Assembly: GCF_019316905.1 (NCBI RefSeq)
Contig: NZ_CP079216.1
Coordinates: forward strand, 806,001-870,000
Reading direction: 5' to 3'
From: Tessaracoccus palaemonis
Lineage (GTDB): Bacteria; Actinomycetota; Actinomycetes; Propionibacteriales; Propionibacteriaceae
DNA: 64,000 bases
Part shown: positions 19,474 to 59,781 of the stretch, piece by piece
Layout: each line of letters begins with the position of its first letter
Numbering within the stretch: the stretch's first letter is position 1
Translations under genes and position numbers: made by a program
The notes under the pieces: generated by a model
Seen by the model: only the letters and a program-made list of their open reading frames with translations
The model's database searches: none
Told to the model about the DNA's origin: nothing

Positions 19474-19475
19474 GG

Positions 19476-42153: not shown

Positions 42154-43307
42154 GCGGGGACCTTCGGGTCGGGGGTCGCGAAGCCGGGCACGACGAGCAC
42201 GGCGGCGGCCAGCACGGCGGCCGGGGGCAGCGTCGGCCACGTCAGCGGGCTGGTGGAGGGGCTGAGGGCGGCGCCCTGCGTGGAGGACAGCCACAGGAAG
42301 ATGACAAGGGCCGCGACGCCGCAGCCCAGAGTCAGGAACTCGGGGGCGCCCCACGGGGCGGGGCGGTAGACGGTGACGCCGAGCTGTCGCCCGGCCACGC
42401 GCATCCCCCAGACGGTCAGCGCGAGGCCCACCAGCAGCAGGGCGAGCGCGATGAGCGTCGCGGGGCTGAGACCCAGCGCGGCGGCCGCGGTCGTCGGCAC
42501 GCCGAGCAGGGCGTAGATGCCGCCCACGATCAGCAGGAGCGCCACGATCAGCTGCCAGGTGCCGCGACGCGGCTCGTCGGCGCGGCGGGTGCGGCCGTAG
42601 CCGCGGGCCTCCATGGAGCTGGCGAGCAGCAGCGACCCCTCGACGCTGTCCTCGATCACGGGGATCAGCGTGCCGGGGACGGCGGCCAGCCCGCGCCGCC
42701 TGCCGCCGCGGAGCCGCTGGCCGCGCCGGACGCGGTGGACCGACGCGATGAGCTGGGGGATCAGGCCGAGCGCGATCACGACGGCGGTGGAGATGTCGCG
42801 CAGCGCGGCGGGGACGGACTTGAGCGCGGTGCGCGGGTTCGCGAGCGAGTTCGCGGCGCCGACGCACAGCAGCATGACGGCCAGCCGCAGCGCGTCGAAG
42901 AAGGCGAACGCGAGGCCGTCGACGGTGACTGGGCCGCCCAGCGTGATGCCCGCCGCCCAGGCGGGCAGCTGCACCGACGGCAGCGTGAACAGGACCGGTC
43001 CGGAGCGCACGCCGCCGATGACGATCTGGAAGAACAGGCGCATGCCGACGATGAACGCGCCGATCATCAGGTAGATCTTCAGCGACCTGGCCCACGGGGT
43101 GTCGGGGCGGCGGCGCAGCACCACCACGACGACTGCGGCGGCGAGGCAGGCGATGACCAGCGGGTTGGTCGTCAGGCTGACGGCCGCGCTGGCGCTCAGC
43201 GCCCAGCCCCACCAGGCCCACGGGTGCACGAAGCGCCCCTCCCGCCGCTCGTCGGCGACGGGAGGGGCGGCCTCTGCGGGGGCGACCCGGGGCAGCAGGC
43301 GGGGCAT
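42150..43307 (-). CDS. ECF transporter T component (module 1)
   Basis: The product is a 385-residue membrane scaffold of the energy-coupling type. An N-terminal group of helices (SASAAVSLTTNPLVIACLAAAVVVVV), a coupling-helix region with the conserved Ala-Arg-Gly motif in ASSMEARGYGRTRR, and extra C-terminal helices (GLSPATLIALALLLVGLALTVW, APEFLTLGCGVAALVIFLWL) are visible. The Arg in A-R-G contacts the ATPase grooves in known ECF structures. The start ATG 43307 lies 5 bases after the stop of the DUF4430-like gene. The C-terminal extension makes it longer than a usual EcfT (about 265 residues). Confidence 0.87.
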   Translation of the reverse strand: MPRLLPRVAPAEAAPPVADERREGRFVHPWAWWGWALSASAAVSLTTNPLVIACLAAAVVVVVLRRRPDTPWARSLKIYLMIGAFIVGMRLFFQIVIGGVRSGPVLFTLPSVQLPAWAAGITLGGPVTVDGLAFAFFDALRLAVMLLCVGAANSLANPRTALKSVPAALRDISTAVVIALGLIPQLIASVHRVRRGQRLRGGRRRGLAAVPGTLIPVIEDSVEGSLLLASSMEARGYGRTRRADEPRRGTWQLIVALLLIVGGIYALLGVPTTAAAALGLSPATLIALALLLVGLALTVWGMRVAGRQLGVTVYRPAPWGAPEFLTLGCGVAALVIFLWLSSTQGAALSPSTSPLTWPTLPPAAVLAAAVLVVPGFATPDPKVPA

Positions 43308-43312
43308 ACGGC

Positions 43313-43999
43313 TCAGCGGCCGCCGAGCGGGCCGGTCTTCTTCCGACGCCCGACCTGCCAGGCGATCAGCCCGGCGCCGACGGCGACCACCGCGATGCCC
43401 ACGACGATCCAGCCCATCGTGCCCGAGTCCTCGGGGGTCTCTTCCTCGGCCTCCTTGCCCTGCGTGGCCTCGGCTCCGGTGACGGGCAGGTCCTGGGCGG
43501 TTGCCCCGGCCGCGGGTGCGACCTCGGTGCCGTCCTGGACGATCTTCAGCGTCGGGGGAGTGCAGCTCTCCTCGTCGGCCTTGTTGTAGCACCAGGCCTC
43601 GATGGTGCCGCCGGCCGGGACGGTCTCTGCAGGGCCGGCCTGGGCGTAGGCGTACTCGGCGCCCGCGGCCCCCTGCCAGTAGTTCCAGTACTGGCCGTTG
43701 AAGGAGGCCGGGCACTCGGACGGGTGGCCGCCGAGCGTGCAGACGAAGTTGCTGGCGTCGTAGCCGATGGCCACCCCGGCGGTCTCGATGGCCGCGATGC
43801 CGGTGGCCGGGGTGCCGACGCACTCGTTGGCGATGACGGTGCCGTCCTCGTCGACGATCAGCAGCCAGACCTGGTCGGAGGACAGGCACTCGCCGACTGC
43901 GTTGGACTCGCCGTCGGCGTGGGCGGCCTGCGGCGCCGTGAGCAGGGAGAGGGTCATGGCGAGCGCGCCCAGCAGCGCGACCACGAGTCGTCGGGTCAT
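43313..43999 (-). CDS. Secreted, membrane-anchored transcobalamin-C/DUF4430-like protein (module 1)
   Basis: The protein has 228 residues: signal peptide (about 1-28, AHADG cut), an outside domain, a Glu-rich linker and a C-terminal transmembrane helix (196-215) followed by GRRKK. The outside domain has six cysteines (38, 60, 87, 96, 137, 146) and the aromatic motif YWNYW at 104-108, features like the DUF4430 / transcobalamin C-terminal domain that covers bound B12 in animals. The paralog at 44244-44873 has exactly the same cysteine spacing. LPVTG at 171-175 is too far from the helix for a normal sortase signal. The first gene after the riboswitch; probable corrinoid-capture protein (inference). 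Confidence 0.78.
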   Translation of the reverse strand: MTRRLVVALLGALAMTLSLLTAPQAAHADGESNAVGECLSSDQVWLLIVDEDGTVIANECVGTPATGIAAIETAGVAIGYDASNFVCTLGGHPSECPASFNGQYWNYWQGAAGAEYAYAQAGPAETVPAGGTIEAWCYNKADEESCTPPTLKIVQDGTEVAPAAGATAQDLPVTGAEATQGKEAEEETPEDSGTMGWIVVGIAVVAVGAGLIAWQVGRRKKTGPLGGR

Positions 44000-44079
44000 T
44001 CGGAGCTCCTTCGCGCCACGCGAGGAACGAATCCGGTGGGACCGGACGCCGCGCATTCCTCGACGCAACAGTTCAGTGT

Positions 44080-44165
44080 CCGGCCTCCGCAGGTTCCCGG
44101 CTCGGCTCTCGCCTCACGGTTGCGGGTCAGCGCCGGATTCGCACCGGACTTCCCTCTCGGGCCGC
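44080..44165 (-). promoter_or_regulatory. Cobalamin riboswitch, compact form (module 1)
   Basis: On the minus strand the leader reads GGGAAGTCCGGTGCGAATCC, then GGCGCTGACCCGCAACCGTG, a short GC hairpin, and GAGCCGGGAACCTGC. These are the conserved 5' core and the 3' GAGCCxGGAxACC box of the B12 element, but the GCCACTG...GGGAAGG part seen in the 21.2 kb copy is missing. The distance to the DUF4430-like start (43999) is about 80 bases. Three further compact copies share the pattern. Confidence 0.82.
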
Positions 44166-44243
44166 GCCCGCGGTCAGCGGGCATCCGTCAGCCTAGTGCG
44201 CCGGACATGCGCTGTGCCGAAACGCGCGGTGCATTTTTCCTCG

Positions 44244-44873
44244 TCAGCGGCCGCCGAGGGCGCCGGAGGGGCCGGAGCTGCGGCGGCGGGCGAGCAGCAC
44301 CAGGACGACCACTACCGCCGCGAGGCCGGCCGCGGTGCCGATCAGGGCCCAGGGGGTGCCGGAAGGGAGCGCGACGGCGGCGTTGGCGGTGACGGGCAGC
44401 TGCCGGACCTCGTCGAGGGAGGGCAGCTCGCACCGCCTCGCGTCGCCGCCGGTGTAGCACCAGCCCTCGACGGAGCCGGCCGGTGGCCGGTAGCCCTGCG
44501 CCCCGCTGTCCGAGTAGTCCCAGCCGCCGCTGGCGTCGGCGTGGAAGTAGGTCCAGTAGTCGCCGGAGGAGGCGGACGGGCACCGGTCCGGGTAACCGTC
44601 GAGGGTGCAGATGAGGATTCCCTTGCCGTAGCCGATGGCCATCCCGCCGGCGGCCAGCGCCGCCTCGCCGGACTCGGGGGTGCCGACGCACTGGTTCGCC
44701 CGCGTCGTGTCGGCGTCGTCGATGACCAGCAGCCACACGTCGCCCGCCGCGAGGCACTCGTCGATGGTCGTGGCGGTCCCATCCGCAGCGGCGCGCGTCG
44801 GCAGGAGGACGAGGCAGAGGAGCAGGGCGGCGAACAGGGGACGCAGGCGCATGGCGGGGCTCGATTCTGGCAT
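44244..44873 (-). CDS. Secreted, membrane-anchored transcobalamin-C/DUF4430-like protein (end of module 2 operon)
   Basis: The protein has 209 residues with signal peptide (to about residue 30), outside domain and C-terminal helix (174-194) followed by ARRR. Six cysteines at 40, 62, 89, 98, 139 and 148 have the same spacing as in the 43313-43999 product, and YWTYF (107-111) replaces YWNYW. Both proteins end in a basic tail finishing L-G-G-R. The start ATG 44873 shares its first base with the TGA of the lytic transglycosylase gene, so translation is coupled; ATG 44852 is an alternative. It is the last gene of the long operon that begins at 55915, and the module 1 riboswitch follows. Confidence 0.78.
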   Translation of the reverse strand: MPESSPAMRLRPLFAALLLCLVLLPTRAAADGTATTIDECLAAGDVWLLVIDDADTTRANQCVGTPESGEAALAAGGMAIGYGKGILICTLDGYPDRCPSASSGDYWTYFHADASGGWDYSDSGAQGYRPPAGSVEGWCYTGGDARRCELPSLDEVRQLPVTANAAVALPSGTPWALIGTAAGLAAVVVVLVLLARRRSSGPSGALGGR

Positions 44874-45616
44874 CAGGACGCGGCGGACACCCGGTAGCCG
44901 TCGGTCGCGGCGGCCACCAGGTTGTTGTAGGAGACGCTGGGATTGTAGGAGGCCACCGCCCCCATCCAGTCGGACGGGTTGGTCAGGTCGACGCCGCCGG
45001 CGCACAGGTAGCGCCCTGCCGACAGTGCGGCGTCGTCGATGTTCTGCGGGTCCGCGACGCCGTCGCCGTTGCCGTCGGAGCCGTGGTCGGCCCAGGTCGA
45101 GGGGATGAACTGCATCGGGCCGACGGCGCGGTCCCAGACGGTGTCTGCGTCCAGCCTGCCCTCGTCCGTGTCACGGACGGTGAGGGTGGATGTGCCGTCC
45201 AGCGCGATGCCGATCAGCGGCGGCGTCTGCGCGCCGTCGTCGCCGATCGCGCCGCCCTGATAGGTGCCGTGGTGGGACTCGACCCAGCCGATGCCGGCCA
45301 GGGTCGCCCAGTCGAGCCCGCAGGCCGGGTACTGCGCCTGCACCTCGAGGGTCGCCCCCGCGTAGGCGGCCATCGCTCTGGCCGGAATGCCCGTTGCCAC
45401 CGCGGTCGAGGCCACCCAGGCGGCATCCGCGCGGGTGGAGACGCCGACGGGAGCCGCCGCGGCGGAACCGGGCTCGCTCGCCCGCCAGGTGCCCTGGGCC
45501 GTCGGCGAGGCGGTGGGGCCGGGCGGCTGGGCTGTTGGCGCCGGCTCGGGGCCCTGGCAGCCGGCCAGGCACACGACGACGACGCAGAGCGCGGAGCGCG
45601 TGCGGCGGCGGGTCAT
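44873..45616 (-). CDS. Lytic murein transglycosylase lipoprotein
   Basis: The product is a 247-residue lipoprotein (lipobox CLAGC, lipidated C20) with a Pro/Thr/Ala-rich linker and a lysozyme-fold domain. The catalytic glutamate is E113 in GIGWVESHHG. The segment AVGPMQFIPSTWADHG followed by SDGNGDGVADPQNIDDAA, a calcium-type loop, is typical of MltB-like enzymes of Actinomycetota. The enzyme would cut peptidoglycan on the outer face of the membrane. AAGGAGG lies just before ATG 45616. A 77-base gap separates it from the TPR gene, the largest in this operon; it holds only a weak hairpin and a possible TACGAT -10 box. Confidence 0.85.
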   Translation of the reverse strand: MTRRRTRSALCVVVVCLAGCQGPEPAPTAQPPGPTASPTAQGTWRASEPGSAAAAPVGVSTRADAAWVASTAVATGIPARAMAAYAGATLEVQAQYPACGLDWATLAGIGWVESHHGTYQGGAIGDDGAQTPPLIGIALDGTSTLTVRDTDEGRLDADTVWDRAVGPMQFIPSTWADHGSDGNGDGVADPQNIDDAALSAGRYLCAGGVDLTNPSDWMGAVASYNPSVSYNNLVAAATDGYRVSAAS

Positions 45617-45693
45617 GGGCCTCCTTCGTCGTGACTGTGGTCCGCGTGACATCGTAGTGCGGCCCCCTCGGGCGGCCGGGTGCCGCGGGTCGC

Positions 45694-46383
45694 TCACCAC
45701 GTCTTCTGCCCGTCGTCGGTGGTCTGCTCGCCCGTGCGGTCCTCCACCTGTCGCCGCTGCTGCTCGGCCTGCTGCTGGCGGTCGGCCAGCTGCTCGGAGT
45801 TGTCGCTGTCGTCGGTCTCGTCGTCGGCCTCGGTGTCGGGCTGGGTCTGGCCGGACTTCTCCGACAGGCGGTTGCTGGTGTCGTCCAACTGGTCCTGCAG
45901 GTCGCCCGACGGTGCGTCGTCGCCTTCGCTTCCCGTCGCCTCCTCGCCGCACGGCGCCGTGGACAGGATCAGCTGGGCCTGCGTCAGCCGGGCGTAGGAG
46001 CCCGCCTTGTCCGTGTCGGCGAGCTGGTCGGCGCCGGCCTCCAGAGACCAGGCCCAGTTGAGGAGCACCCGGCACTGCACGCCGACCGGGGCGCGGCCCA
46101 TGGCGCGTTCGAAGCTGTCGGCCGCCGCGTCCCACTGCCTGAGCCGGTACTGCGCGGTGCCCCGATCGAAGGCGGGGACCCAGGAATCGACCACCGGCAG
46201 GGTCTCCGCCGCGGCGAACGCCTCGGCGGCCCCCGCGTGGTCGCCCCGGTCGGTGCGGGCGAGACCGACCTGCACCGCGGCCAGCTGGAAGCCCAGCACG
46301 GCGGCCGCGCACAGCAGCGCGATCGCGGGCAGCGTGGTCGCGACGAGCCAGCGGCGGGCCAGCACCTGTCGTCGGGTTCTCAT
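45694..46383 (-). CDS. Membrane-anchored TPR-like protein of the MoxR-VWA cluster
   Basis: The protein has 229 residues: an N-terminal transmembrane helix (about 13-35), one or two TPR-like helical hairpins outside (GDHAGAAEAFAAAETLPVV, WDAAADSFERAMGRAPVGVQCRVLLNWAWSLE), and a long acidic and glutamine-rich tail (QLDDTSNRLSEKSGQ, DSDNSEQLADRQQQAEQQRRQ) expected to be coiled or disordered. TPR proteins of this type accompany BatA/BatB-like VWA proteins in aerotolerance (Bat) clusters. The start overlaps the VWA gene stop by 4 bases. Confidence 0.72.
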   Translation of the reverse strand: MRTRRQVLARRWLVATTLPAIALLCAAAVLGFQLAAVQVGLARTDRGDHAGAAEAFAAAETLPVVDSWVPAFDRGTAQYRLRQWDAAADSFERAMGRAPVGVQCRVLLNWAWSLEAGADQLADTDKAGSYARLTQAQLILSTAPCGEEATGSEGDDAPSGDLQDQLDDTSNRLSEKSGQTQPDTEADDETDDSDNSEQLADRQQQAEQQRRQVEDRTGEQTTDDGQKTW

Positions 46384-47327
46384 CTCACGTCCTCCCTGCT
46401 CCGCCGCCAGTGACGCACGCAGACCGACAGCCCCCACAGGAGGGGGAGCAGGGCCGCCGCTGCGGCGATCCAGGCCAGCGAGCGGCCGGCGGCATCGTCG
46501 CCCGAGACGGCGACGGCCGCCGCCGGTAGGTCGGAGGCGAAAACGCCCGGGGCCGTGCGGTGCTCGTAGCCGCCGCCCAGCTGGGCGGCGATCTGCCGGA
46601 GGTTGTCCTCGTCGATGCGGGAGATCTGAGGAGAGCCGTCGCGCGTGACGTACTCGTCGGAGTCGGGCGTGGTACGCATCCTGCCTCCCTCGGTGGTGCC
46701 GTAGCCGAGCACGAGCGCGCCGTCCAGGTAGGCGGCCGCGGGCGCGAAGGAGCTCGGCGCCTCGGGGCTCGTCTGCTCGCCGTCGCCGAGGTAGACGAGC
46801 AGTCGGTGGGCCTCGGGTCGGGTCGCGGCTGAGTCGGAGAGCAGCTGGGTCGCGAGCGGTTCGGCGGCGGCGATGTCGCTGCCCGTCCCGTAGCTTTCGT
46901 CCCGCCACCCGACGGTCTGCGCGAGCGAGGTGACTGCGCGGGCGTCGGTGGTCCAGGGCAGGGCCTGGGTGGCCTCGTTGTCGCTGACGATCGCGCTGTA
47001 CCGGGCGGCGCCCAGCCGGGAGACGAGCTCGGTGACGTCGGCGGCGACGCCGTCCATCCGGGGCCGGTCGCCGTCGTAGTCCTCGGCGCCCATGGAGGTG
47101 GTGCGGTCGATGACGAGCACGACGTCCAGCCCCGCGGGGGCCTCGGCGGGCTCGTCCGTGGCGGCGAGCGCGGGCTGGGTCGCGATCACGGCCACGAGGG
47201 CCAGCACCGCGAACCCGCGCAGCCAGGGCCCGGTGCGCAGGGCCCCGTGCGAGATCCCGGCGATCAGCCAGACGATGGCCAGCGCGGCGACGAGCGCGAT
47301 CAGCCACCACAGGGGAGTCACCGTCAT
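46380..47327 (-). CDS. VWA-domain membrane protein (BatB-like)
   Basis: The protein has 315 residues with two N-terminal transmembrane helices, a von Willebrand A domain (about 66-280) facing outside, and a C-terminal transmembrane helix (SLAWIAAAAALLPLLWGLSV). The MIDAS motif reads D74-R-T-T-S78, with threonine where serine is usual, so metal binding is plausible. YLGDGEQT supplies a further MIDAS residue. GGAGGAGACG precedes ATG 47327, which also overlaps the stop of the first VWA gene by 4 bases. The tandem VWA pair next to MoxR and DUF58 is the hallmark of Bat/MRP clusters. Confidence 0.85.
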   Translation of the reverse strand: MTVTPLWWLIALVAALAIVWLIAGISHGALRTGPWLRGFAVLALVAVIATQPALAATDEPAEAPAGLDVVLVIDRTTSMGAEDYDGDRPRMDGVAADVTELVSRLGAARYSAIVSDNEATQALPWTTDARAVTSLAQTVGWRDESYGTGSDIAAAEPLATQLLSDSAATRPEAHRLLVYLGDGEQTSPEAPSSFAPAAAYLDGALVLGYGTTEGGRMRTTPDSDEYVTRDGSPQISRIDEDNLRQIAAQLGGGYEHRTAPGVFASDLPAAAVAVSGDDAAGRSLAWIAAAAALLPLLWGLSVCVRHWRRSREDVR

Positions 47328-48283
47328 CGTCTCCTCCTCCCCGCCAGCCAGGCGGCCCCCGCCAACGTCGCGCCGACGAGCATCGTCACGGCGCCGGGCC
47401 ACAGCAGCGCCTCGCCGCGGGCGCGGGGCGGCCCGGCCAGCGCCGTGCGCTCCTGCTTCTCGACCGCCTCCGTGATCGCCGTGACGTCGGTATCGGCGGC
47501 GAGCGGGAGCGTGTCCCCGCCGGTGCTGCGGAGCTGCTGCGTGAGGGCCTGGGTCACCTTGGGCGTGTTGTCGGCCGGGACGATCCCGTACACCAGGACC
47601 CCCTGCTCCACGGCGAGCCCGACGGCCTGCTCCAGCGTGAAGAGAGGTGCTCCCGCCACCTGGTTGTCGGTGGCGAGCACGAGGGTGCGTGACCGGTTCT
47701 GCTCCGGCACGTCGAAACGCTGCAGGCAACTGGCGAGCCCGTCGCCCACCAGCGAGGTCCCGTCCCCGATCTGGGTGCCGGGCAGCACGCGGCCGTCGAG
47801 CCGGTCGCGGGTCGCGGTGAGCTGCTCGGTGATGAATGCCGCGTCGTCGGTCAGGGGGAAGACGGTGATGGCGGAGGCGTCGAACAGCACCAGCGCGATG
47901 CGCTCCCCGTCGAGGTCCGCGGCGAGCCGGAGGTAGGCGTCGATGACGCCGCGGTCGATCTCAGTCATGGAGCCCGACACGTCGAGGCACAAGACGATGT
48001 CGCGGCTGGCCCGCTCGTCGCTCGCGGTGGACGCCGCGACGGGCTGCGCGACCAGCAGGGCCGCGCCCGCCGCGGCGAGCAGGAGGCCGAGGGCCCGCAC
48101 CGTCAACTGGCGGGAGCGGCGGCGCGCCAGCTGGTGGAAGCGCGGCAGGGCGCGCAGCGCTCCGGTGCCGGCGACGGGAGCCCCGCCCCGGTCGCGTCGC
48201 GTCGCGACGAGGAACGATGCGGCCGCCACCGCGAGGATCAGCACCAGGGCGGAAAGGCCGGCGAGGGGTTGGGTCAGCGCCAT
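47324..48283 (-). CDS. VWA-domain membrane protein (BatA-like)
   Basis: The protein has 319 residues with two N-terminal helices (about 8-27 and 61-82), a VWA domain with intact MIDAS D101-V-S-G-S105 and VLFDAS, and a C-terminal helix before GRRRR. VWA domains coordinate a metal and bind partner proteins, here likely remodelled by the MoxR ATPase encoded upstream. The start ATG 48283 overlaps the preceding gene by 10 bases. Most similar in layout to BatA; the cellular target is unknown. Confidence 0.87.
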   Translation of the reverse strand: MALTQPLAGLSALVLILAVAAASFLVATRRDRGGAPVAGTGALRALPRFHQLARRRSRQLTVRALGLLLAAAGAALLVAQPVAASTASDERASRDIVLCLDVSGSMTEIDRGVIDAYLRLAADLDGERIALVLFDASAITVFPLTDDAAFITEQLTATRDRLDGRVLPGTQIGDGTSLVGDGLASCLQRFDVPEQNRSRTLVLATDNQVAGAPLFTLEQAVGLAVEQGVLVYGIVPADNTPKVTQALTQQLRSTGGDTLPLAADTDVTAITEAVEKQERTALAGPPRARGEALLWPGAVTMLVGATLAGAAWLAGRRRR

Positions 48284-48741
48284 GTTGTCACCGCCTCCCG
48301 GACGCGGGCGGCCAGGCCGTCGACCGCGGCGGCGTCCGGCTCCCCGTAGGCGAGGTGGTCCACCTCGTCGGCCAGCCCGGAGACGCGGATCAGCCGGGGA
48401 TCCTTGACCGCGGCCAGCCGCAGCTGCCCCGCGGTCTGGTAGTCGGCGTCGGAGTCGAGCGCGAGGCCGGCGAAGCGTCGCACCGCGCGCCCGATGAGCC
48501 GCGCCCGTTCGGTCGGCTCGGCGGCGGCCATGGCCTCGTCGACGAGCGAGAGGGTCTCCTGCCGCACGAGGTCGAGCGACCGGTCCGCAGCCGGGGGCGT
48601 CTCGCGCCGGAGGGAGCGCCACCGGGTGATGCCCAGCGTGAGGAGGGCGGCCGCCAGGACCACCAGGCCTGCGAAGACGACCCACCACCACCAGGTCACG
48701 GGGACCGCTGGGTGGATGGTTTCGAGGAGATCAGCGGACAT
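48274..48741 (-). CDS. Small membrane protein of the MoxR-VWA cluster (DUF4381-like)
   Basis: The protein has 155 residues: a short outside N-terminus, one transmembrane helix (VTWWWWVVFAGLVVLAAALLTLG, about 15-38), and a cytoplasmic helical part with ERARLIGRAVRRFAGLALDSDADYQTAGQL. The position between DUF58 and the first VWA gene and the topology fit the DUF4381-like proteins of MoxR clusters, which may link cytoplasmic ATPase and membrane VWA proteins. Overlaps with both neighbours (11 and 10 bases). Family assignment is by context and topology. Confidence 0.65.
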   Translation of the reverse strand: MSADLLETIHPAVPVTWWWWVVFAGLVVLAAALLTLGITRWRSLRRETPPAADRSLDLVRQETLSLVDEAMAAAEPTERARLIGRAVRRFAGLALDSDADYQTAGQLRLAAVKDPRLIRVSGLADEVDHLAYGEPDAAAVDGLAARVREAVTTWR

Positions 48742-49606
48742 GGCGCAGCCTCCTGACGAGCGAGACGACGTCGGCGACGACCGTGGCCGGATCCCCGAGC
48801 TCGGCGTGCGCGACGCCGAGCCGCATGAGGGCGTTCGCCCGGAGCGTGGCGCGTCGGGCCCGCTCGTCCGCAAGGTCGCGGCGGAGCCGCTCGTCGTACA
48901 GCCAGTCCGGCAACCGCGCGCCGCGCTCCAGGTCCAGCAGGGGCCCGCCCAGGCGGGGGTCGGTCGGGTCGGCGTCGGGGACGGTCAGCCACAACACGGT
49001 GTGCTGCGCCCCCAGCCGGCGGACCCGGGACTCGAGCTGCGGGTCGAGGAGCACGTCGTCGGAGATGACCGCCACGACCCCGCGGCGGCGCAGGGTCCGC
49101 GCGGCGGTGCCGAGCAGCCGGTCGAGGTCGGTGGGCGCGGCATCGGGGGAGACCGTGGCCTCCGCGGCGGTCAGCTGCCGCTCGAGGTCGACGAGCCGCG
49201 TGGTGGGTCGGGCCGCTCGCGGGCTGCCGTCGTCGCACCAGAGCAGGCCCGCGTGGTCGCCGAAGGCGTGGGCAAGGACCGCGAGGGTGGCGGCGGCATC
49301 GAGGGCCAGGTCCCGCTTCCGGACGCCCGGGGCGGCGAGCCCGGCGAGCTGGACGCCGGTGGTGAGGGCCACCAGCAGCGCGCTGCGACGCTCGGCGACG
49401 TGCCGACGGATCAGCAGCTCGCCCGTCCGGGCGGTGGCCCGCCAGTCGATGTCGGCGACGTCGTCGCCGGCCGCGTACTCCCGCAGGTCGTTGAAGTCGA
49501 GGCTCCGGCCGACGTGGAGGGAAGGGTGGACGCCGTCGAGCTGGCCGACCACCTTGTGGCGGACGGCCAACGCGACGGCGCCGCGGACGCGGGGGATGCG
49601 GGCCAT
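48731..49606 (-). CDS. DUF58 domain protein
   Basis: The protein has 291 residues. It carries the DUF58 signature GRSLDFNDLREYAAGDDVADIDWRATART around residues 33-61, followed by a VWA-like fold in the C-terminal part (VAVISDDVLLDP). DUF58 proteins are cytoplasmic members of MoxR operons and probably bridge the ATPase to its clients. The gene begins at the base directly after the moxR stop (49607) and overlaps the next gene by 11 bases. Confidence 0.88.
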   Translation of the reverse strand: MARIPRVRGAVALAVRHKVVGQLDGVHPSLHVGRSLDFNDLREYAAGDDVADIDWRATARTGELLIRRHVAERRSALLVALTTGVQLAGLAAPGVRKRDLALDAAATLAVLAHAFGDHAGLLWCDDGSPRAARPTTRLVDLERQLTAAEATVSPDAAPTDLDRLLGTAARTLRRRGVVAVISDDVLLDPQLESRVRRLGAQHTVLWLTVPDADPTDPRLGGPLLDLERGARLPDWLYDERLRRDLADERARRATLRANALMRLGVAHAELGDPATVVADVVSLVRRLRHVR

Positions 49607-50605
49607 CTACGGGGTGGGGACGGCGGCGAACAGGTCGTCGATCAGGCCCTCGGGGCGGATCCGCTCGGCGAGGGCCTCGAAGGACAGGATGAGTCGGTGC
49701 CGCAGGACGGGGTACCGCATGGCGAACACGTCGTCGGGCACCGCGTGGTCGCGGCCGTCGAGCAGCGCGGAGGCGCGGGCGGCCTGCAGGAACGCGATCG
49801 CGCCGCGGGGGCTGGAGCCGTACTCGATGCAGCGGGCCCGGTCGCCGGGGAGGTGGTCGTCGGGGCTGCGCGTGACGGAGACGAGCTCGACGATGTAGCG
49901 CTTGATCGGGTCGGCGACGCTCACCCGGCGGACCAGCTGCTGCAGCCTGAGCAGGTCGGCGGTGCTGCAGGCCGGCGGCGCCTGGTCATCGAAGGCCCCG
50001 GTCTCGAGCCGGGTGAGCACCTCGAACTCCTCGTCGGCGGTGGGGTAGTCGATGATCTCCTTCAGGAGGAAACGGTCCAGCTGGGCCTGGGGGAGGACAT
50101 AGGTGCCCTCCTCCTCGATGGGGTTCTGTGTCGCGAGCACCACGAAGGGGTCGGGCAGCCGGTAGGTCGTGCCGCCGATGGTCGTCTGCCGCTCCTGCAT
50201 CGCCTCGAGCATGGCCGACTGCGTCTTGGTGCTGGAGCGGTTGATCTCGTCGAGCAGCACGAAGTTGGCGTGGACCGGGCCGAGCTCGGTCACGAAGCCG
50301 CCGGTCGAGCGGTCGAAGATCTGCGAGCCGATGATGTCGCTCGGCAGCAGGTCCGGGGTGCACTGGACGCGGTTGAAGCTGCCCTCCACCGAGCGGGCCA
50401 GCGTCGACGCGGCCAGCGTCTTCGCCAGCCCCGGCACGGACTCGAGCAGCACGTGGCAGCGGCTGAGCACCGCAACCAGCAGGGCCCGGCGCATCATGGG
50501 CTGCCCCACCACCGTGTCGGAGAACCGGCGGGTCAGGCGGTCGAGCGTGTCCTTCGCCCAGACCAGCTCGTCGGCGGACAGGGGCGTGCGGTCGGATTCA
50601 TTCAT
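49607..50605 (-). CDS. MoxR-type AAA+ ATPase
   Basis: The product is a 332-residue AAA+ ATPase of the MoxR family: Walker A-like ESVPGLAKT at 55-63, RVQCTPDLLPSDIIGS, Walker B with DEIN (119-122, LLDEINRSS), and sensor region VLATQNPIEEEGTYVLPQAQLDRFLL. MoxR proteins act as chaperones for VWA-protein complexes. The start ATG 50605 lies 8 bases inside the ECF S-component gene, so this ATPase is transcribed together with the riboswitch-controlled ECF module. Although AAA+ and VWA proteins recall cobaltochelatase CobS/CobT, the sequence and its DUF58/Bat neighbours fit MoxR. Confidence 0.93.
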   Translation of the reverse strand: MNESDRTPLSADELVWAKDTLDRLTRRFSDTVVGQPMMRRALLVAVLSRCHVLLESVPGLAKTLAASTLARSVEGSFNRVQCTPDLLPSDIIGSQIFDRSTGGFVTELGPVHANFVLLDEINRSSTKTQSAMLEAMQERQTTIGGTTYRLPDPFVVLATQNPIEEEGTYVLPQAQLDRFLLKEIIDYPTADEEFEVLTRLETGAFDDQAPPACSTADLLRLQQLVRRVSVADPIKRYIVELVSVTRSPDDHLPGDRARCIEYGSSPRGAIAFLQAARASALLDGRDHAVPDDVFAMRYPVLRHRLILSFEALAERIRPEGLIDDLFAAVPTP

Positions 50606-51488
50606 CCGGGTCTCCTTGGGCGGTGTTCCAGAGGTTGGCGAGTCGGTCGGAGGAGGCCCTACGGCGCAGCGCCGACGGTGCGACGCGAACCGTGGCTGGC
50701 GGAGAGACCTCGACAGGGAGGGTGCGCGCGTCGTGGAGGCGGCGCAGCAGGTGGATCAGCGGGCCGCCTGCCAGCGCCAGGAACGCGGCGGTGGTGATGG
50801 CACGGGTCAGGTCGTAGCCGACCGACGTCGCCCAGGTGTAGGACGCGAGCCGCTGCGTCGACTCCCAGAGCCCGACGCCGGGCAGGAAGGCCCCTGCGTC
50901 GGCGGCCGTCTCGCTCGGCCAGCCGGTGAGGTTCAGCAGGGCGCCCGACAGCACTCCGAGCGGGAGCGCCAGCAGGGTGGCGCCCGCGGCGGCCGCCTTC
51001 GTCGGGGCGAGGCGCAGCAGGCCGCCCGCCATCCCCCACAGCCCCCACACGAGCACCTGCCCGACGAGCGGGGTGGCGACGGTGTCGGCCGCCACTGCGT
51101 AGCCCAGCGCGCTGACGACACCCGTGAGGAAGCCGGCGGGAGAGCCGAGCACGACGCCGGCGATCAGGGGGAACGCGTAGGCGAACTCCACGCCGCTCGC
51201 GCCCGGGTGCAGGGCCACGGCGGACAGCGATCCGGCGGCGGCCAGGGCGGCGATCGGCGTCAGCGGTCGCCAGGTCCGCCCCGCCGTCAGCCAGAGGCAG
51301 AGGCCCAGCAGGACGCTCAGCGCGATGACGGCGGCCAGCATCCAGGGCAGCTCGGCGCCCAGCGTGGTGGTGTCGGCCGCGCCCGCGGAGTCCCACAGCG
51401 GCCACGTCAGCCAGCCGTAGCCGAGCAGGGCCGTGCCGGCGAGCGCGGCGCGGGGCAGGGCGCCGGTGGTGGGGGAGTCGTGGCGCAT
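50598..51488 (-). CDS. ECF transporter S component (module 2)
   Basis: The product is a 296-residue membrane protein with about six helices and a polar C-terminal tail. It is paralogous to the module 1 S component: both share a G-x-x-G-[IV]-E-F stretch before a helix pair (GASGVEFAYAFPLIAGVVLG here) and a GMAGGLL / GMFAGLL turn. ATG 51488 is preferred because GGAGGT lies 9 bases before it; GTG 51494 overlaps the ATPase stop and is possible. The end overlaps moxR by 8 bases. The substrate is unknown; riboswitch context suggests a corrinoid-related ligand. Confidence 0.75.
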   Translation of the reverse strand: MRHDSPTTGALPRAALAGTALLGYGWLTWPLWDSAGAADTTTLGAELPWMLAAVIALSVLLGLCLWLTAGRTWRPLTPIAALAAAGSLSAVALHPGASGVEFAYAFPLIAGVVLGSPAGFLTGVVSALGYAVAADTVATPLVGQVLVWGLWGMAGGLLRLAPTKAAAAGATLLALPLGVLSGALLNLTGWPSETAADAGAFLPGVGLWESTQRLASYTWATSVGYDLTRAITTAAFLALAGGPLIHLLRRLHDARTLPVEVSPPATVRVAPSALRRRASSDRLANLWNTAQGDPDE

Positions 51489-51490
51489 GC

Positions 51491-52882
51491 TCACCGCACC
51501 TCCGCGAGCGAGTCGAGGACGTCGCCGAGCCTGAGTGGGGAGGCCGCGGGCAGCGCGCGGGCGGCCAGCGGCGGGTCGGGCAGGAGGCGCAGCACCGCGC
51601 GCGGGGTGCCGAACGCGACGACCGTCTCGCCGTCGACGACCAGCACGCGCGAGCACGCCCGCACGAGGAACTCCACGTCGCGGGTCGTGATGATGCGGAT
51701 GCCCGCCGAGCCGGCGGCGAGGCTGCGCTGCGCGGCGATCTGGCCAGCCTGATCGAGGCCGAGTTGGGGCTGCGGGAGCCAGACCGCCCGCTCCAGCGGG
51801 CCGGCGAGCAGCATCCTCAGCCCGGCCTGCTCACCCGAGCTGTGGCTGGACAGCGGCGAGCGGAGCCGGATGGTGGGGCCGACGGCGGCGGCGGTCGAGG
51901 TGCCGTGCGCCCGGTCCCACTGGCGGCAGAGCTCACCCGGGGTCAGCGTGCCGGGCAGCACGCTCGGCACCCGCGTGCCGCGCAGCCGGGCGGTGAGGGC
52001 GCGGGCGACGGGCTCCGGGCGGCCCGCGACCGCGACGACGCCGACGGACTCACCGTCGCCGATCTCGAGGGGCAGGTCGCCGGCCAGACCGAGGTCGACG
52101 GGCGAGACCACGGTTCCGGCCGCGGTGGGCACGCGCCCGCTCCGACGGACCTCGGCAGGCCGCCCGGCGACGAGGGCGGCGACCTGCTCCGGGGTGCGCG
52201 CGTGCGAGGGTGGGATGCGCAGCGCGCGGGACAAGGTCTTCATCGTCGGCTCCCGGACGGTGACCGGGGCCCAGTCCTCCAGCGGCACGGTCGCCTCGCG
52301 CGGCTCGGCCACGTCGTCGGCGAACTGCCACACCTGATCGAGCTGGTGCTCGGCCCACATCACGTGGGCCCCGTCGTCCGCGCGGGCCCGCAGCGCCCAG
52401 CCGAGCCTCGCCCGCCAGGCGCCGTCCAGCGCCGCGCTCGGCTGGTCGACGAGCACCAGCGGCAGCCGGGGGCCGTGCTCGAGGCGGGCCACCGCGACCC
52501 GTGCGCGCAGGTCGGGGGGCAGGGCCGCCACGGGGGACTGGGCGCGGTCGACGAGGTCGTAGTCGGCGGGTGAGGCACCCAGGTCGGCGAGGGCCGCGTC
52601 GACGGTGTGGGGATCGTCGCGCTGCGGATCCACCAGCAGGCAGCGGGCCCGCACGTCGGCCGGGGTCGCGGCGAGGAGGTCGCGGCCGTCCAGCAGTGCG
52701 CGCCCGGAACGGAGTGCGCCGCCGGGGAGCGTGCGGGCGAGGAGCCGCAGCAGGGTGCTCGTGCCCCGCCCGCCGGGGCCGACCAGCGCCGTGATGCGTC
52801 CCGCGGCTGCCGTCAGCGTGACGTCGTGGAGCACCACGCCGCGCGACGGCAGGGCCACGGTCAGGTCCTCGATCTCGAGCAC
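51491..52882 (-). CDS. Degenerate ECF-type double ATPase (module 2)
   Basis: The protein has 463 residues and the two-domain plan of an EcfA1-EcfA2 fusion, but its catalytic motifs are worn. Half 1: Walker A reads GPGGRGTST (35-43), with Thr41 for the essential lysine; the signature motif is replaced by PPDLRARVAV; Walker B is LVLVDQP with Gln147 for the catalytic Glu. Half 2: the P-loop is gone (AVAGRPEPVAR near 285-295), the signature is HSSGEQ, and Walker B reads AVWLPQP. The switch histidine WAEHQ of half 1 remains. The frame is intact with no stops, so it is a maintained pseudo-ATPase rather than a recent pseudogene. The start is GTG 52882. Confidence 0.82.
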   Translation of the reverse strand: MLEIEDLTVALPSRGVVLHDVTLTAAAGRITALVGPGGRGTSTLLRLLARTLPGGALRSGRALLDGRDLLAATPADVRARCLLVDPQRDDPHTVDAALADLGASPADYDLVDRAQSPVAALPPDLRARVAVARLEHGPRLPLVLVDQPSAALDGAWRARLGWALRARADDGAHVMWAEHQLDQVWQFADDVAEPREATVPLEDWAPVTVREPTMKTLSRALRIPPSHARTPEQVAALVAGRPAEVRRSGRVPTAAGTVVSPVDLGLAGDLPLEIGDGESVGVVAVAGRPEPVARALTARLRGTRVPSVLPGTLTPGELCRQWDRAHGTSTAAAVGPTIRLRSPLSSHSSGEQAGLRMLLAGPLERAVWLPQPQLGLDQAGQIAAQRSLAAGSAGIRIITTRDVEFLVRACSRVLVVDGETVVAFGTPRAVLRLLPDPPLAARALPAASPLRLGDVLDSLAEVR

Positions 52883-52885
52883 GGC

Positions 52886-53884
52886 TCAGCCCTCCCGGTC
52901 CGTGAGGAGCGCCGCCACGGGCAGCAGGAGGGTGGCGGCGACGGCGAGGTAGGGGATGCCCGGCCACCCGTCGGAGGGCTGCCAGTCGAGGGCAGCGGCG
53001 CCGGGGAGCCATGAGCGGGCGCAGAAGGCGGCCAGGGCCACCGCGGCGCAGGCCGTGACGGCGGTGGGCCGCTCGCGGGCCGCGCCGATCAGGATCAGCG
53101 GCAGCGATGCCACGGCCAGCACGCCGAGGGGCGACAGCGCCGTCGTCCAGGATGATGCCGCGCCCGTGGCGATCGCGACGACCGCGGCGGGGATCAGGAG
53201 GAGGGCGAACGGCCGGGCGACGGTCGCGGCACGACCCTCGGGCTCCGCGCTGGGCGGGTCGGCCTCTCCGGCGGCGGCGAAGGCGCCTCCTGCCCTTGTC
53301 AGGGTCGGGACCCGCCAGCCCTGGGCGCGGTGGACGTCGGCCGCCAGCCACGACCAGCTCAGCGAGTCGCCGAGCAGACACCACGGGGTCAGAAGCTCGG
53401 CGAGGCGCCCGAACACCGCCCGGGACGTGTGCAGCCAGGCCCTGCCGGGCAGCACGAGCCAGCCCAGCCCGATCAGAGCGACCAGTGCCCAGGCGCGCAC
53501 CCCGGCCGTCAGGGCGGCGGCGAGGCTCCCGACCGTGACCGGCCCGCCGAAGCGCACACCGGGGGCGGGCTGCCAGGAGGGCAGGTCGAGCAGCAGGGTG
53601 CCCGTCCCGGAGCCGGTGACGGCGATGCCGGCGAGCAGGCGCCAGACCAGGGCGAGCGAGCCGATCGCGAGCGCCACGCGGAATGCCGGGCGCCGGGGGC
53701 CGCCGGTCAGGGCGCCCGCCAAGCCGATCATGACCGCGGCGGCCAGCACGGGCACGGGGTTGGTGGTGGTCAGGAGCATCGCGGCGCTGGACAGGAGCAG
53801 GGCCCCCCAGGCCAGGCCCCCGGCGGGGCGCCGGACCCGGGGGGCCGCGGAGGCGTGCCGCGCCGGGTCGAGGACCTCAGTCAT
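52886..53884 (-). CDS. Diverged ECF-type T component (module 2)
   Basis: The product is a 332-residue membrane protein in the place of EcfT, with the same N-terminal design as module 1 (TTTNPVPVLAAAVMIGL compared with LTTNPLVIACLAAAVV) and GGPVTVGSLAAALTAGVRAW matching GGPVTVDGLAFAFFDALRLA. The coupling-helix region has lost the Ala-Arg-Gly motif: HRAQGWRVPTL stands where EARGYGRTRR is in module 1. Together with the degenerate ATPase this suggests that module 2 no longer couples ATP hydrolysis in the usual way. It overlaps the upstream gene by 8 bases. Confidence 0.72.
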   Translation of the reverse strand: MTEVLDPARHASAAPRVRRPAGGLAWGALLLSSAAMLLTTTNPVPVLAAAVMIGLAGALTGGPRRPAFRVALAIGSLALVWRLLAGIAVTGSGTGTLLLDLPSWQPAPGVRFGGPVTVGSLAAALTAGVRAWALVALIGLGWLVLPGRAWLHTSRAVFGRLAELLTPWCLLGDSLSWSWLAADVHRAQGWRVPTLTRAGGAFAAAGEADPPSAEPEGRAATVARPFALLLIPAAVVAIATGAASSWTTALSPLGVLAVASLPLILIGAARERPTAVTACAAVALAAFCARSWLPGAAALDWQPSDGWPGIPYLAVAATLLLPVAALLTDREG

Positions 53885-54809
53885 CGAGGCGCCCCCTGCG
53901 CGAGGTCAGCGGGACGGCCACCAGGACCGAGGCGAGGGCAAGCCCCGCGACGCCGGCCGAGACCCCCTTCACGAGTGCCGTGGGTCGTTGATCCGCGTTC
54001 CGGGCCTCCGCGACCTCCTCGCCGACGGGCGGTGGTGTGCCGAGCGTCGCGCGCGGTTCCTCGTCGCCGGTGGCGTCGGGGGTCGCCGCCCAGGTGACGT
54101 CCGCGGTCCCCGACGTGAGGTTCCTCAGCCGGAAGGTGTAGGGCTTCGCGTCCAGCCCGCGCGGCATCTCGTACGCGACCGTGGCGACGTCGGCGGGACT
54201 CTTCGCGGCGGTGTTGGCCGTCGTCGGATCGGCGGCGGTCGCGTCGTGCCAGGTGCCGTCGTCGTCGGCGTAGTCGACGGCGAACAGCGAGCCGGGGATC
54301 GTGCCGACCAGCTGCAGGTCGAGCACGGCCCCGGCCGGCTTCCGGTCGCCGTAGCCGTCGCCCAGCAGGACCGGGATCCGGCTCCCGAACGGCACGAAGC
54401 CTCCGATGGTCTCGGATGTGTCGGTGCCCTCGACGCCTGCGAGGCTGACCAGTGCCCAGCCGCCGGTCAGGTCGTCGTCGATGGGAGGGACCGCGACGTT
54501 GACGGTCGCCGTGCCCGAGTTCGGCACCGTGACCTCGCCGCCGGTGCTGATGGCGGTGAGCTTCGTCACGGTGTCGCCGTCCAGCGTGGCCTGGTAGACG
54601 ACGACCGTGACGCGGGCGCCCGCGTTGCCGGTGACCACCACCGGGTAGGCGACACCCTCCATGATGCGTGTGTCGAAGCGGAGGGAGCACCCGGCGGCCG
54701 CCCCGTCGCACAGGGCGCTCACCTGGTCGGGGGCTTCGGCGACGGCGGTCCGGCTGAGGCCGGCGAGGGCGCACGCGAGCAGGGCTGTCGCGAGGAGACG
54801 GCGGATCAC
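53877..54809 (-). CDS. Secreted membrane-anchored protein of unknown family (module 2)
   Basis: The protein has 310 residues with a signal peptide (about 1-26), an outside region with one close cysteine pair (C34, C41) and mostly beta-rich sequence (VTVVVYQATLDGDTVTKLTAI, GTATVNVAVPPIDDDLTGGWALVSLAG), and a C-terminal transmembrane helix (GVSAGVAGLALASVLVAVPL) with a short basic-acidic tail. I do not recognise the family. GTG 54809 overlaps the stop of the preceding gene (GTGA). It may be a second surface protein that works with the DUF4430-like product encoded just upstream. Confidence 0.65.
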   Translation of the reverse strand: MIRRLLATALLACALAGLSRTAVAEAPDQVSALCDGAAAGCSLRFDTRIMEGVAYPVVVTGNAGARVTVVVYQATLDGDTVTKLTAISTGGEVTVPNSGTATVNVAVPPIDDDLTGGWALVSLAGVEGTDTSETIGGFVPFGSRIPVLLGDGYGDRKPAGAVLDLQLVGTIPGSLFAVDYADDDGTWHDATAADPTTANTAAKSPADVATVAYEMPRGLDAKPYTFRLRNLTSGTADVTWAATPDATGDEEPRATLGTPPPVGEEVAEARNADQRPTALVKGVSAGVAGLALASVLVAVPLTSRRGRLDD

Positions 54810-55915
54810 TCGTCGTCCAGCGAGCCGGAGGCGGAGGCCGGTCGCAGCGCGGCCAGCGCGAACCCGAGGCCGCCGAGCGCGATGGCGCCAAGTCCGCCCA
54901 GGGTTGCCAGCGATGACCAGCGGGGCACCGGGGCCGCGGCGGCGGTGTCGTCCGGCCCTGCCCCGGCGTTCTCCTGGCCCCACACCTTCGACGGGGACGC
55001 GGAAGGTGTCGGGGAGGGAGATGCGGAGGCGGGGGGCTCCGTCGACGGGGTGGCCGATTGGCTGGGTGGCGTGCTGCTGGGCGTCACGGCGGAGGTCGGC
55101 GTGGCCGAGGGTGGCGCAGAACTCGTCGAGGAGGGCCGCGGGGTAGATGACGGCGTGCGGTCGGCGGAGGGTTTCGTAGTTGCCGTCTTCGTGGTCGACG
55201 AGGTCGGCTTCTTCGTCGCGGTCGGCTTGGCCGTCGCGGTGGGCTTCCCGGTGGCGGTGGGCTTCCCGGTGGCGGTGGGCTTGCCCGATGACGAGGGCTT
55301 TCCCGAGGCCCCGCCGGAGGGCGACCCGCTCGCGTCGGGCGTCGGCGAGGCGCTCGTGGTGGGGGCGAAGGCGGGCGCGTCGCGCGGAGCGATGATCGCC
55401 TGGGAGTCCGTGTTGTCGGTGTAGGTCAGCCCCCAGAAGAGGTCGTAGAAACCGGTCTCCCGGTCCGCAGCGGGCACATAACTGGTCTGCTTCCCGCCGC
55501 GCCAGGCGCCCTCGACCCCCGCGACCATGTGCCAGTAGAACTCCCCGAGGTCGTCTTCGGTTGGCATGCCGACGCCCTCGAGCCCGTTGATGCTGGTGAT
55601 GAGGCCGCCGGTGCCCTGACCGAACTCGATGCCGGCCGACTTCAGGAAGGCAACCTGGTCGCTGCCGAACGGCGTCGTCTTACCGTTTCCCTCGAGCGGG
55701 ATGCAGCGGATCAGGATGCGGCCCTCACGGTCGACAACCGGCGTGTCGTCGCCCTCGTAGGCGCTCCAGTCGAGGACGACGGTCAGGCCCTCGCCCTGCT
55801 GGCAGGCCCCGTCGTGCCAGGTGTCTCCCTCGTCGCCCAGCGCGGGGAGGCCAGACGTCGCCGCGACGGCCAGCAGCGAGGCGCCTACCACCGCCGCCCG
55901 AACCACGAGCCTCAC
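54806..55915 (-). CDS. Secreted DUF4430-like protein with Pro/Thr/Ser stalk (module 2)
   Basis: The protein has 369 residues: signal sequence (about 1-25), a DUF4430-like domain (about 30-180), a 130-residue Ser/Thr/Pro/Lys stalk with PTATGK repeats (212-235), and a C-terminal helix (336-357). The domain has C38 and C71, VVDREGRILIRC (compare VDEDGTVIANEC in module 1), GGLITSINGLEG and EFYWHMVAGVEGAW, which recall transcobalamin C-terminal domains. The stalk would hold the domain away from the membrane, through the cell wall. I chose GTG 55915 since it gives a clean signal peptide and has AGAGGTGG upstream. It is the first gene after the riboswitch. Confidence 0.75.
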   Translation of the reverse strand: MRLVVRAAVVGASLLAVAATSGLPALGDEGDTWHDGACQQGEGLTVVLDWSAYEGDDTPVVDREGRILIRCIPLEGNGKTTPFGSDQVAFLKSAGIEFGQGTGGLITSINGLEGVGMPTEDDLGEFYWHMVAGVEGAWRGGKQTSYVPAADRETGFYDLFWGLTYTDNTDSQAIIAPRDAPAFAPTTSASPTPDASGSPSGGASGKPSSSGKPTATGKPTATGKPTATAKPTATKKPTSSTTKTATTKPSADRTPSSTPRPSSTSSAPPSATPTSAVTPSSTPPSQSATPSTEPPASASPSPTPSASPSKVWGQENAGAGPDDTAAAAPVPRWSSLATLGGLGAIALGGLGFALAALRPASASGSLDDE

Positions 55916-55999
55916 CCGTCCACCACCTCTGCGCACGCGCAGGGTGGGGCCGACCGGCACCGCACGCTGCGCACTCCTCGGCGCATCCGTCCATGTCGC

Positions 56000-56080
56000 A
56001 GTCCTGGTGGTTGTCCGGCTCGGCTTGCGCCTCACGGTTGCGGGTCAGCGCCGGTCTCTCACCGGCTTCCCCACCTCGGG
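56000..56080 (-). promoter_or_regulatory. Cobalamin riboswitch, compact form (module 2)
   Basis: The minus-strand leader shows GGGGAAGCCGGTGAGAGACC, GGCGCTGACCCGCAACCGTG, a short GC hairpin and GAGCCGGACAACC, the same compact B12 element as at 44.1 kb. It lies about 90 bases before the DUF4430-like start at 55915 and would control the longest operon in the window. The Nudix gene diverges on the other side. Confidence 0.82.
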
Positions 56081-56173
56081 ACTGGGCCCGTCCGCGACGG
56101 GCACGGCCAGTCTAGCCATGCTCTGGCGTCGAAGCGGACGAGGAAGTGTGAGTCGGTCGACTAGCGTCGAGGC

Positions 56174-59701: not shown

Positions 59702-59714
59702 GGCCGACCCGACG

Positions 59715-59765
59715 CACAACGACGCGGTGCGCGTGAGCCAGGCTCACGCGCACCGCGCCGTTGTG
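59715..59765. terminator. Very long near-perfect hairpin between convergent genes
   Basis: CACAACG-A-CGCGGTGCGCGTGAGCC (59715-59739) pairs with GGCTCACGCGCACCGCG-C-CGTTGTG (59741-59765), 24 base pairs with one mismatch and a single-base loop. It lies between the convergent stops of the gene at 58910 and the DUF1540 gene. Probably a bidirectional terminator; the arms could instead form a cruciform. Confidence 0.7.
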
Positions 59766-59781
59766 TCGAGGGACCGCCGGG

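Follow-up and report, generated by a model that had tools for sequence, protein, structure and literature searches.

A cobalamin riboswitch-associated gene block joining a MoxR-VWA cassette to an ECF module without ABC catalytic residues in Tessaracoccus palaemonis and its relatives

Introduction

Why a MoxR AAA+ ATPase and its von Willebrand factor A (VWA) partner proteins should be encoded in one unit with an energy-coupling factor (ECF) module, behind a cobalamin riboswitch, is the question raised by a run of minus-strand genes in Tessaracoccus palaemonis. The run lies within the window analysed here, i.e. the whole stretch of 64,000 nucleotides at C1:806001-870000 of the 3.2 Mb, single-contig genome (G000), which has a G+C content of 71% in this stretch; coordinates below are those of the window unless prefixed with C1 or given for another locus, and its genes are numbered G1 to G17. 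Comparison with relatives points to a recurrent block of constant gene order, preceded by a riboswitch, in which the catalytic residues of the ATP-binding cassette (ABC) component are lost and the coupling helix of the EcfT-like component is shortened, with an intact MoxR that belongs to a single clade. These features suggest a hitherto undescribed mode of vitamin B12 (B12) uptake or handling, in which a transporter with a dead motor is joined to an intact ATP-driven machine.

MoxR/VWA cassettes are widespread and, to our knowledge, their clients are known in few cases. The AAA+/VWA pair CobS/CobT is linked to corrin chemistry. A literature search, the reach of which mostly left out subscription journals, returned nothing joining MoxR with a cobalamin riboswitch and nothing joining an ECF transporter, an AAA+ ATPase and MoxR; where MoxR, riboswitch and vitamin B12 came together, MoxR merely stood in a table of regulator-binding sites. 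On the present arrangement nothing was found in the titles and opening lines of abstracts of the best 15 of 62 and the best 10 of 40 records on two topics. MoxR is not named in those portions of the main text considered from riboswitch work on Cutibacterium and Propionibacterium (PMC9600381, PMC11494915, PMC5644110), and a bifidobacterial MoxR-DUF58 cluster is reported in a passage of PMC8430577.

Results

Thirteen minus-strand genes (G1 to G13) run from 55915 to 44244, with successive junctions of -4, -8, +3, +2, -8, 0, -11, -10, -4, -4, +77 and -1 bases, the +2 between G4 and G5 becoming an overlap of 4 if a GTG start is used. The junction list thus bears out the original prediction of near-zero spacing with one 77-base gap, as well as its placing of the moxR start (50605) inside the S-component gene (50598-51488), where the overlap is 8 bases. 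The conserved unit comprises the first eleven of these genes, G1-G11 (45694-55915), encoding in order a surface protein, the protein G2, an EcfT-like protein, an EcfA-like protein, an S component, MoxR, a DUF58 protein, a DUF4381-like protein, two VWA proteins and a tetratricopeptide repeat (TPR) protein; in what follows T, A and S denote the three ECF components.

As judged from alignments, the ECF part of the block should not work as an ABC motor, because the Walker A Lys, the Walker B Glu and the second P-loop are absent and one coupling helix is mostly missing together with its SMEARG-type motif. The fused EcfA-like protein G4 (51491-52882, minus strand) aligns over its full length (hhalign 99.9%) to G16 (40531-42153, minus strand), an intact fused EcfA whose two halves each carry GKS and DEP and which is the nearest relative of G4 in its own genome. 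The Walker A Lys is absent from all 25 readable copies of G4, GxxGxGK[ST] having become GPGGRGTST in the window and carrying T, Y, A, G or S in place of the Lys elsewhere, with the glycines retained. The Walker B Glu is likewise absent in 25/25, DE being replaced by DQ (VDQ in the window), DA, DR, DP or DH, and the second half is devoid of a P-loop in all aligned rows (L054 and L052 are unreadable at these sites and L075 has no copy). Both sites are retained in intact G16 in the 5/5 genomes checked.

The EcfT-like membrane protein G3 (52886-53884, minus strand) aligns to the EcfT G15 (42150-43307, minus strand; CbiQ family, PF02361 E 6.4e-7) over the first 176 columns only (columns 4-176; hhalign 98.3%), and one coupling helix is mostly missing. 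Only 6-10 of the 20 positions of the coupling-helix end (EDSVEGSLLLASSMEARGYG in G15) are filled, in 17/17 rows, and the SMEARG-type motif, present as SMEARGYG in G15, is found in 0/17 G3 rows vs 5/5 G15 rows; the count covers T proteins other than the profile-only ones of L051, L055, L056, L069, L072 and L073 and the low-scoring one of L040. We take EDSVEGSLLLASSMEARGYG to be the coupling-helix end, a role assigned with the help of PMC10368641. For a studied ECF transporter, passages of the same paper describe X-Arg-X coupling helices that transmit motion to the S component, and a Walker B Glu-to-Gln change that abolishes ATP hydrolysis, stops transport and severely impairs growth under conditions that require cobalamin uptake (PMC10368641).

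The S component G5 (50598-51488, minus strand) is a paralogue of G17 (39758-40534, minus strand; PF12822 E 2.5e-8; no NCBIfam name), which is the S component of the intact transporter next door (31% identity, E 9e-19; profile probability 99.4%). On account of its riboswitch G17 is presumably CbrT-like; it matches no solved chain. When the G5 family was compared with ECF S-component Pfam models, 2 and 1 of its 18 members matched, weakly.

The MoxR protein G6 (49607-50605, minus strand; AAA_3 E 7.1e-58) has its Walker A, Walker B and neighbouring motifs intact in 28/28 rows, one of them cut C-terminally, and matches solved structures including 2r44 and RavA. It is followed on the same strand by the DUF58 protein G7 (48731-49606; PF01882 E 8.7e-27) and the DUF4381-like G8 (48274-48741; PF14316 24.3 bits, below the cut-off of 27.2), with one transmembrane segment (21-39) and a cytosolic C-terminal part. 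Next come two VWA proteins, G9 (47324-48283, minus strand; MIDAS-like DVSGS; PF13519 E 2.3e-9; best NCBIfam models BatB and BatA, far below cut-off) and G10 (46380-47327, minus strand; MIDAS-like DRTTS; PF13519 E 1.1e-7; BatB-like at 30.2 bits vs a cut-off of 350). The TPR protein G11 (45694-46383, minus strand), with an N-terminal transmembrane segment, is identified by weak TPR matches and by its conserved position, is the last conserved gene of the block and, by position, is presumably BatE-like.

Ahead of the ECF genes stand G1 (54806-55915, minus strand), a secreted surface protein with a long Pro/Ser/Thr-rich linker and a C-terminal membrane anchor, so described from sequence features as the window copy has no Pfam domain, and G2 (53877-54809, minus strand), a secreted, C-terminally anchored protein of unassigned family with two invariant Cys in the alignment, which serves as a marker of the block. 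The original description of G1 as DUF4430-like has to be given up, since Pfam DUF4430 matches 0/8 G1 members, and the only profile likeness is a weak one of its globular part to the SCO2322-like proteins G13 and G14 (hhalign probability 80%). Hydropathy and charge, with some judgement by eye, predict an outside position for G1, G2, the two VWA domains and the TPR, a membrane position for S and T, and an inside position for the dead A, MoxR, the DUF58 protein and the tail of the DUF4381-like protein.

G1 is immediately preceded by a cobalamin riboswitch (55988-56118, minus strand), scoring 74.7 bits (E 1.6e-20) with R1, a covariance model made from 20 aligned Rfam matches of these loci, with 15 pairs, and run on 36 sources; the window copy was outside the training set. 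The general Rfam model RF00174 gives 29.7 bits at 56009-56071, just under its cut-off of 31.5. Upstream on the same strand, a riboswitch of at least 50 bits (R1) was found in 26/27 testable blocks (L052 is cut and was left out; 9 of the 26 positives belong to the R1 training set). In 21 of the 26 it is within 1.9 kb of G2 (in L040, which is without G2, of the next block gene), and in the other five it is at 4.4-6.0 kb, with same-strand open frames in the stretch between riboswitch and block in the four of these that were checked (all but L117 of genome G111). Around other MoxR genes R1 found 0 matches (seven regions of 14-17 kb and 18 short loci), and in 20 regions with ECF-free cassettes it gave two weak matches only, of 17.2 and 15.9 bits. 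Expression of the block would be repressed by B12.

The extent of the block was defined by comparison with relatives. The search with G5 covered 197 genomes of the family, its own included, of which 122 matched at E 1e-5 or better, the matches splitting into a near class (E below 1e-30; the own genome and 18 others, one with two copies) and a G17-like class. G2 matched 30/293 genomes of the order, 25 strongly and five weakly (E 1e-8 to 1e-14); in a G2 search of 396 genomes of the phylum its own genome was the sole match. The loci compared were the 19 near loci outside the own genome, and 8 further loci via the G2 search, a second family being represented by loci from 5/7 matching genomes; the weak G2 matches (G084, G112, G176, G056, G009) and two second-family genomes (G328, G348) stand outside the counts. 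The total is 28 blocks, the window included, from Propionibacteriaceae and one other family of the same order, with Cutibacterium species (C. avidum, C. namnetense and C. modestum) among the hosts.

Where readable (tblastn for 27 loci; profiles for 14 of them and the window), the order G1-G2-T-A-S-MoxR-DUF58-DUF4381-VWA-VWA-TPR is constant, with a small number of exceptions. Two loci (L042, L052) end with their contigs; L054 (C. modestum) has a dead EcfA homologue without its N-terminal half and no recognisable T; L074 has no DUF4381 match and no separate T match; the second family has two G2 copies with no G1 before them; and L041/L076 and L044 have, at the place of G1, an open frame (386 or 421 codons) with no tblastn match to the window G1. 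The remaining two, L040 and L075, are considered in the Discussion. Two genomes, G035 (L049/L050) and G346 (L068/L069), each hold two divergent blocks, each with ECF genes and a MoxR cassette. In the second family (L068-L073) there is also an opposite-pointing riboswitch before surface genes, some of them G1-like or repeat-bearing.

The junction between the S gene and moxR, the recurrence of which in relatives the original prediction had made decisive, is an overlap in 24/26 blocks read, of 8 bases in the window and of 1-17 bases in 23/25 relatives; L055 and L056 have gaps of +167 and +176 bases. Among plausible starts the one closest to the stop of the gene before was chosen, a choice biased to overlap; with starts from alignment only (19 loci), the outcome is unchanged locus by locus, with 17 overlaps and 2 gaps. 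Order and overlaps are retained across both families at S-component identities of 31-53%.

The two distal genes of the thirteen do not belong to this unit. G12 (44873-45616, minus strand; alternative GTG start 45697), an SLT_2/MltB-like lytic transglycosylase (PF13406 E 1e-7), gave no tblastn match in the relatives' loci, and no gene like G13 (44244-44873, minus strand; SCO2322-like surface protein, NF040672 E 3.6e-8, 33.9 bits, below the cut-off of 85) stands between the TPR gene and the next riboswitch in relatives, where G13-like genes sit elsewhere. Seven relatives have a second riboswitch close to the TPR stop, at a distance of -17 to +40 bases; the window has G12 and G13 in between. Both genes are local at this place, and the thirteen-gene unit as a conserved whole was rejected. 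The earlier proposal of B12 control is supported for the block by its upstream riboswitches, and does not extend as a conserved feature to the transglycosylase, which like G13 was not found at this place in relatives. A plasmid-borne element was also rejected, moxR DNA and G5 protein being without a match in the plasmid collection.

MoxR proteins of the blocks are 58-76% identical to that of the window; the other MoxRs of 15 genomes reach at most 48%, bar one partial match of 52% over 189 residues. MoxR was matched at E 1e-95 or better in 35/394 genomes of the class, the own and one other block genome included, and 20 non-block places were hand-picked among the matches listed. All 20 of these regions contain MoxR, DUF58, VWA and TPR genes, 19/20 a second VWA gene and 18/20 a DUF4381-like gene. 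None of their open frames has its best match (>25 bits) in G1-G5; an ABC ATPase with best match to G16 is present in 3/20, and the genes upstream of 16 ECF-free cassettes look, by eye, mutually unrelated. The MoxR-to-TPR cassette is portable and occurs in other actinobacterial families with neither ECF genes nor riboswitch. A tree of 55 MoxR sequences gathers the 27 rows from blocks in a single group (96/84; 98% of bootstrap trees) nested in ECF-free cassettes and, because of this one clade, the block looks like the outcome of a single joining of the portable cassette to an ECF set.

The neighbouring unit, with a complete ECF transporter (39758-43999), begins at a second cobalamin riboswitch (44071-44197, minus strand; RF00174 41.7 bits), and its first gene, G14 (43313-43999, minus strand), encodes an SCO2322-like surface protein paralogous to G13 (NF040672 29.8 bits, below the cut-off of 85). 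Further Rfam cobalamin riboswitches in the window are at 63510-63653 (minus), 21177-21359 (minus) and 63696-63829 (plus); among the matches listed, the genome has seven, i.e. five in the window plus a pair at about C1:1.29-1.30 Mb (150/210 first-look candidates scored). The latter two (C1:1286001-1306000, L125) precede what appear by eye to be genes for making cobalamin and importing cobalt, so the host may be able to synthesise or salvage cobamides and have retained the machine all the same. At 60280-63504 (minus strand) a 1074-amino acid DUF4430 surface protein with Ig-like repeats is encoded behind a riboswitch, an opposite-pointing riboswitch being 43 bases off (63510-63829). The top-scoring riboswitch listed for the genome (83.6 bits) is before an apparent peptide/nickel-type binding-protein ABC importer, so assigned by eye (16160-21359, minus strand), which is unexpected in a B12 regulon. 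A long inverted repeat (59709-59780) lies just 3' of a plus-strand gene; a sub-threshold Rfam microRNA match there is probably due to chance.

Discussion

It is probable that the block serves B12-controlled corrinoid acquisition, although we hold this a little less firmly than at the outset because no solved cobalamin S component is matched by G5 or by G17. A corrinoid is plausible as the substrate, on the basis of the riboswitches and of the paralogy between G5 and G17, the S component of the transporter next door, which is itself under riboswitch control. The block would be an accessory corrinoid-acquisition machine, made when B12 is low, in which G1 and G2 would capture the corrinoid outside and G5 would sit in the membrane with its EcfT-like and EcfA-like partners. 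That pair may be at most a docking platform, since the EcfA-like protein has lost its ATP-using residues. MoxR is the only intact ATPase of the set and, together with the DUF58 and DUF4381-like proteins and the VWA and TPR proteins, the main domains of which are predicted to be outside, may remodel or reset the S/T/A complex, so replacing the ABC motor; the action of NorQ/NorD (MoxR/VWA) on a membrane enzyme offers a parallel for such remodelling. The substrate, the physical complex and the direction of force are all what we infer.

That MoxR acts on the ATPase-dead ECF complex is, in our assessment, a little short of an even chance. A full motor swap, i.e. a dead-ABC ECF importer with its S component cycled by a MoxR ring via DUF58, DUF4381 and the extracellular VWA/TPR domains, is more doubtful and on balance unlikely; if true, it would let cytosolic ATP do work beyond the membrane, making it a counterpart in function to TonB-type energising in bacteria that have no outer membrane.

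The block resembles several known systems in part. With ECF-CbrT, as portrayed in passages of PMC5997447, it shares an operon of S, T and fused A homologues headed by a B12 riboswitch; it differs in that A is without the Walker A Lys, the Walker B Glu and the second P-loop, in that the T coupling helix is shortened, in the extra MoxR cassette and surface proteins, and in that G5 and G17 are without a match to a solved S component. With the Bat-type operon known from Bacteroides aerotolerance (moxR-DUF58-VWA-VWA-TPR; passages of PMC11834572) and its ECF-free actinobacterial counterparts, it shares MoxR, DUF58, DUF4381-like, two membrane VWA and TPR genes in the same order. Unlike this operon and the ECF-free actinobacterial cassettes, the block cassette stands behind ECF/surface genes and a cobalamin riboswitch, neither of which accompanied the 20 ECF-free cassettes. 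In NorQ/NorD, likewise, a MoxR ATPase with a VWA partner acts on a membrane protein, as is proposed for the block, and NorQD is required for iron insertion into cNOR, as set out in part of PMC9976466. By contrast, the proposed client in the block is an ATPase-dead ECF complex, and the block VWA domains are predicted to be outside the membrane. CobS/CobT and magnesium chelatase also combine an AAA+ protein with a VWA partner, but similarity to these is weak only (TIGR02442). A cobaltochelatase CobNST was rejected (TIGR02442 28.6 bits vs a cut-off of 779), and there is no CobN-like Pfam match among the block genes, the rest of the genome not having been searched for CobN.

Several results weigh against the proposal of a corrinoid-acquisition machine with a dead ECF complex as MoxR client. 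With respect to regulation, in one block (L047) the 5.5 kb upstream of G2 are free of riboswitches, and folding of the leader is no better than that of shuffles (z -0.93). With respect to the ECF part, the search of solved structures gave no match of the G5 profile or of G17 to any solved S component or chain, an Arg is retained in the shortened G3 helix in several rows (e.g. L039, L041, L068), making an X-Arg-X contact possible, and the S component could borrow a working EcfA/EcfT, a G17-like S gene being always present (its ATPase was checked in 5 genomes). The predicted structure of G1 has a pLDDT of 35 and no usable fold. Lastly, L075 (5170-12852; genome G069, contig C15) has the riboswitch, G1, G2 and the whole MoxR cassette with no T, A or S, in a genome that also carries a complete block (L046). 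This locus calls for caution, because without ECF genes the cassette may serve the surface proteins alone.

The latter possibility is the best of the alternatives, though we consider it improbable, i.e. that the MoxR/VWA cassette matures or displays G1 and G2, or remodels the envelope for them, with the dead ECF complex as a passive binding partner unpowered by MoxR. L075 is what it would lead one to expect, G2 is present in 26/28 blocks (L040 is without it; L052 is cut), and the VWA and TPR domains are predicted to be outside, as are G1 and G2. However, the S gene is even more constant, being present in 27/28 blocks, its overlap with moxR is all but general in the blocks read, and L040 keeps the ECF genes and the cassette without G2.

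Less probable still is that the intact EcfA/EcfT next door energises the block S component in trans, G3 and G4 being a platform for docking or storage and the mixed complex being assembled or recycled by the MoxR cassette. Consistent with this proposal, a G17-like S match besides the block is found in 20/20 family genomes with a block vs 102/177 without (p = 4e-5, a value that is not strict as the genomes are related; 3/20 of the S matches contain a stop codon), EcfA and EcfT are intact in the five genomes checked, and G16 is the nearest relative of G4 in its own genome. It is also known, from passages of PMC5997447, that one ECF module can serve several S components. Against it, G3 and G4 retain their fold without catalysis and keep a constant order with G5 and moxR, an arrangement that points to a dedicated complex.

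It may be, alternatively, that the dead ECF complex is a sensor, reporting outside corrinoid through MoxR/VWA with no transport. ATPase-dead transporter homologues that act as sensors are known in general, and the block has been added to an intact transporter rather than replacing one; however, Pfam and NCBIfam scans recognised no regulator, kinase or sigma factor gene in the block, and the riboswitch already supplies regulation, so we regard a sensor as very unlikely. That the genes are mere neighbours, an ordinary Bat-like stress cassette having come to lie by chance behind a B12 operon, is the least credible reading, since, although like cassettes without ECF genes occur in other Actinomycetota (20/20 regions), order and overlaps are kept in two families at the S-component divergence given above, the MoxRs form one clade and a riboswitch precedes nearly every testable block.

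Cutibacterium species are among the carriers of the block, and metagenomes have led to the prediction that cobamides are shared on skin (PMC9600381). Regulation, gene order and paralogy together name a likely client for a MoxR/VWA system, i.e. a B12-controlled ECF-type complex with a dead motor, and MoxR/VWA function would thereby become testable by a vitamin uptake assay. If MoxR does drive or reset this complex, then in these bacteria an ABC motor would have given way to an AAA+ ring.

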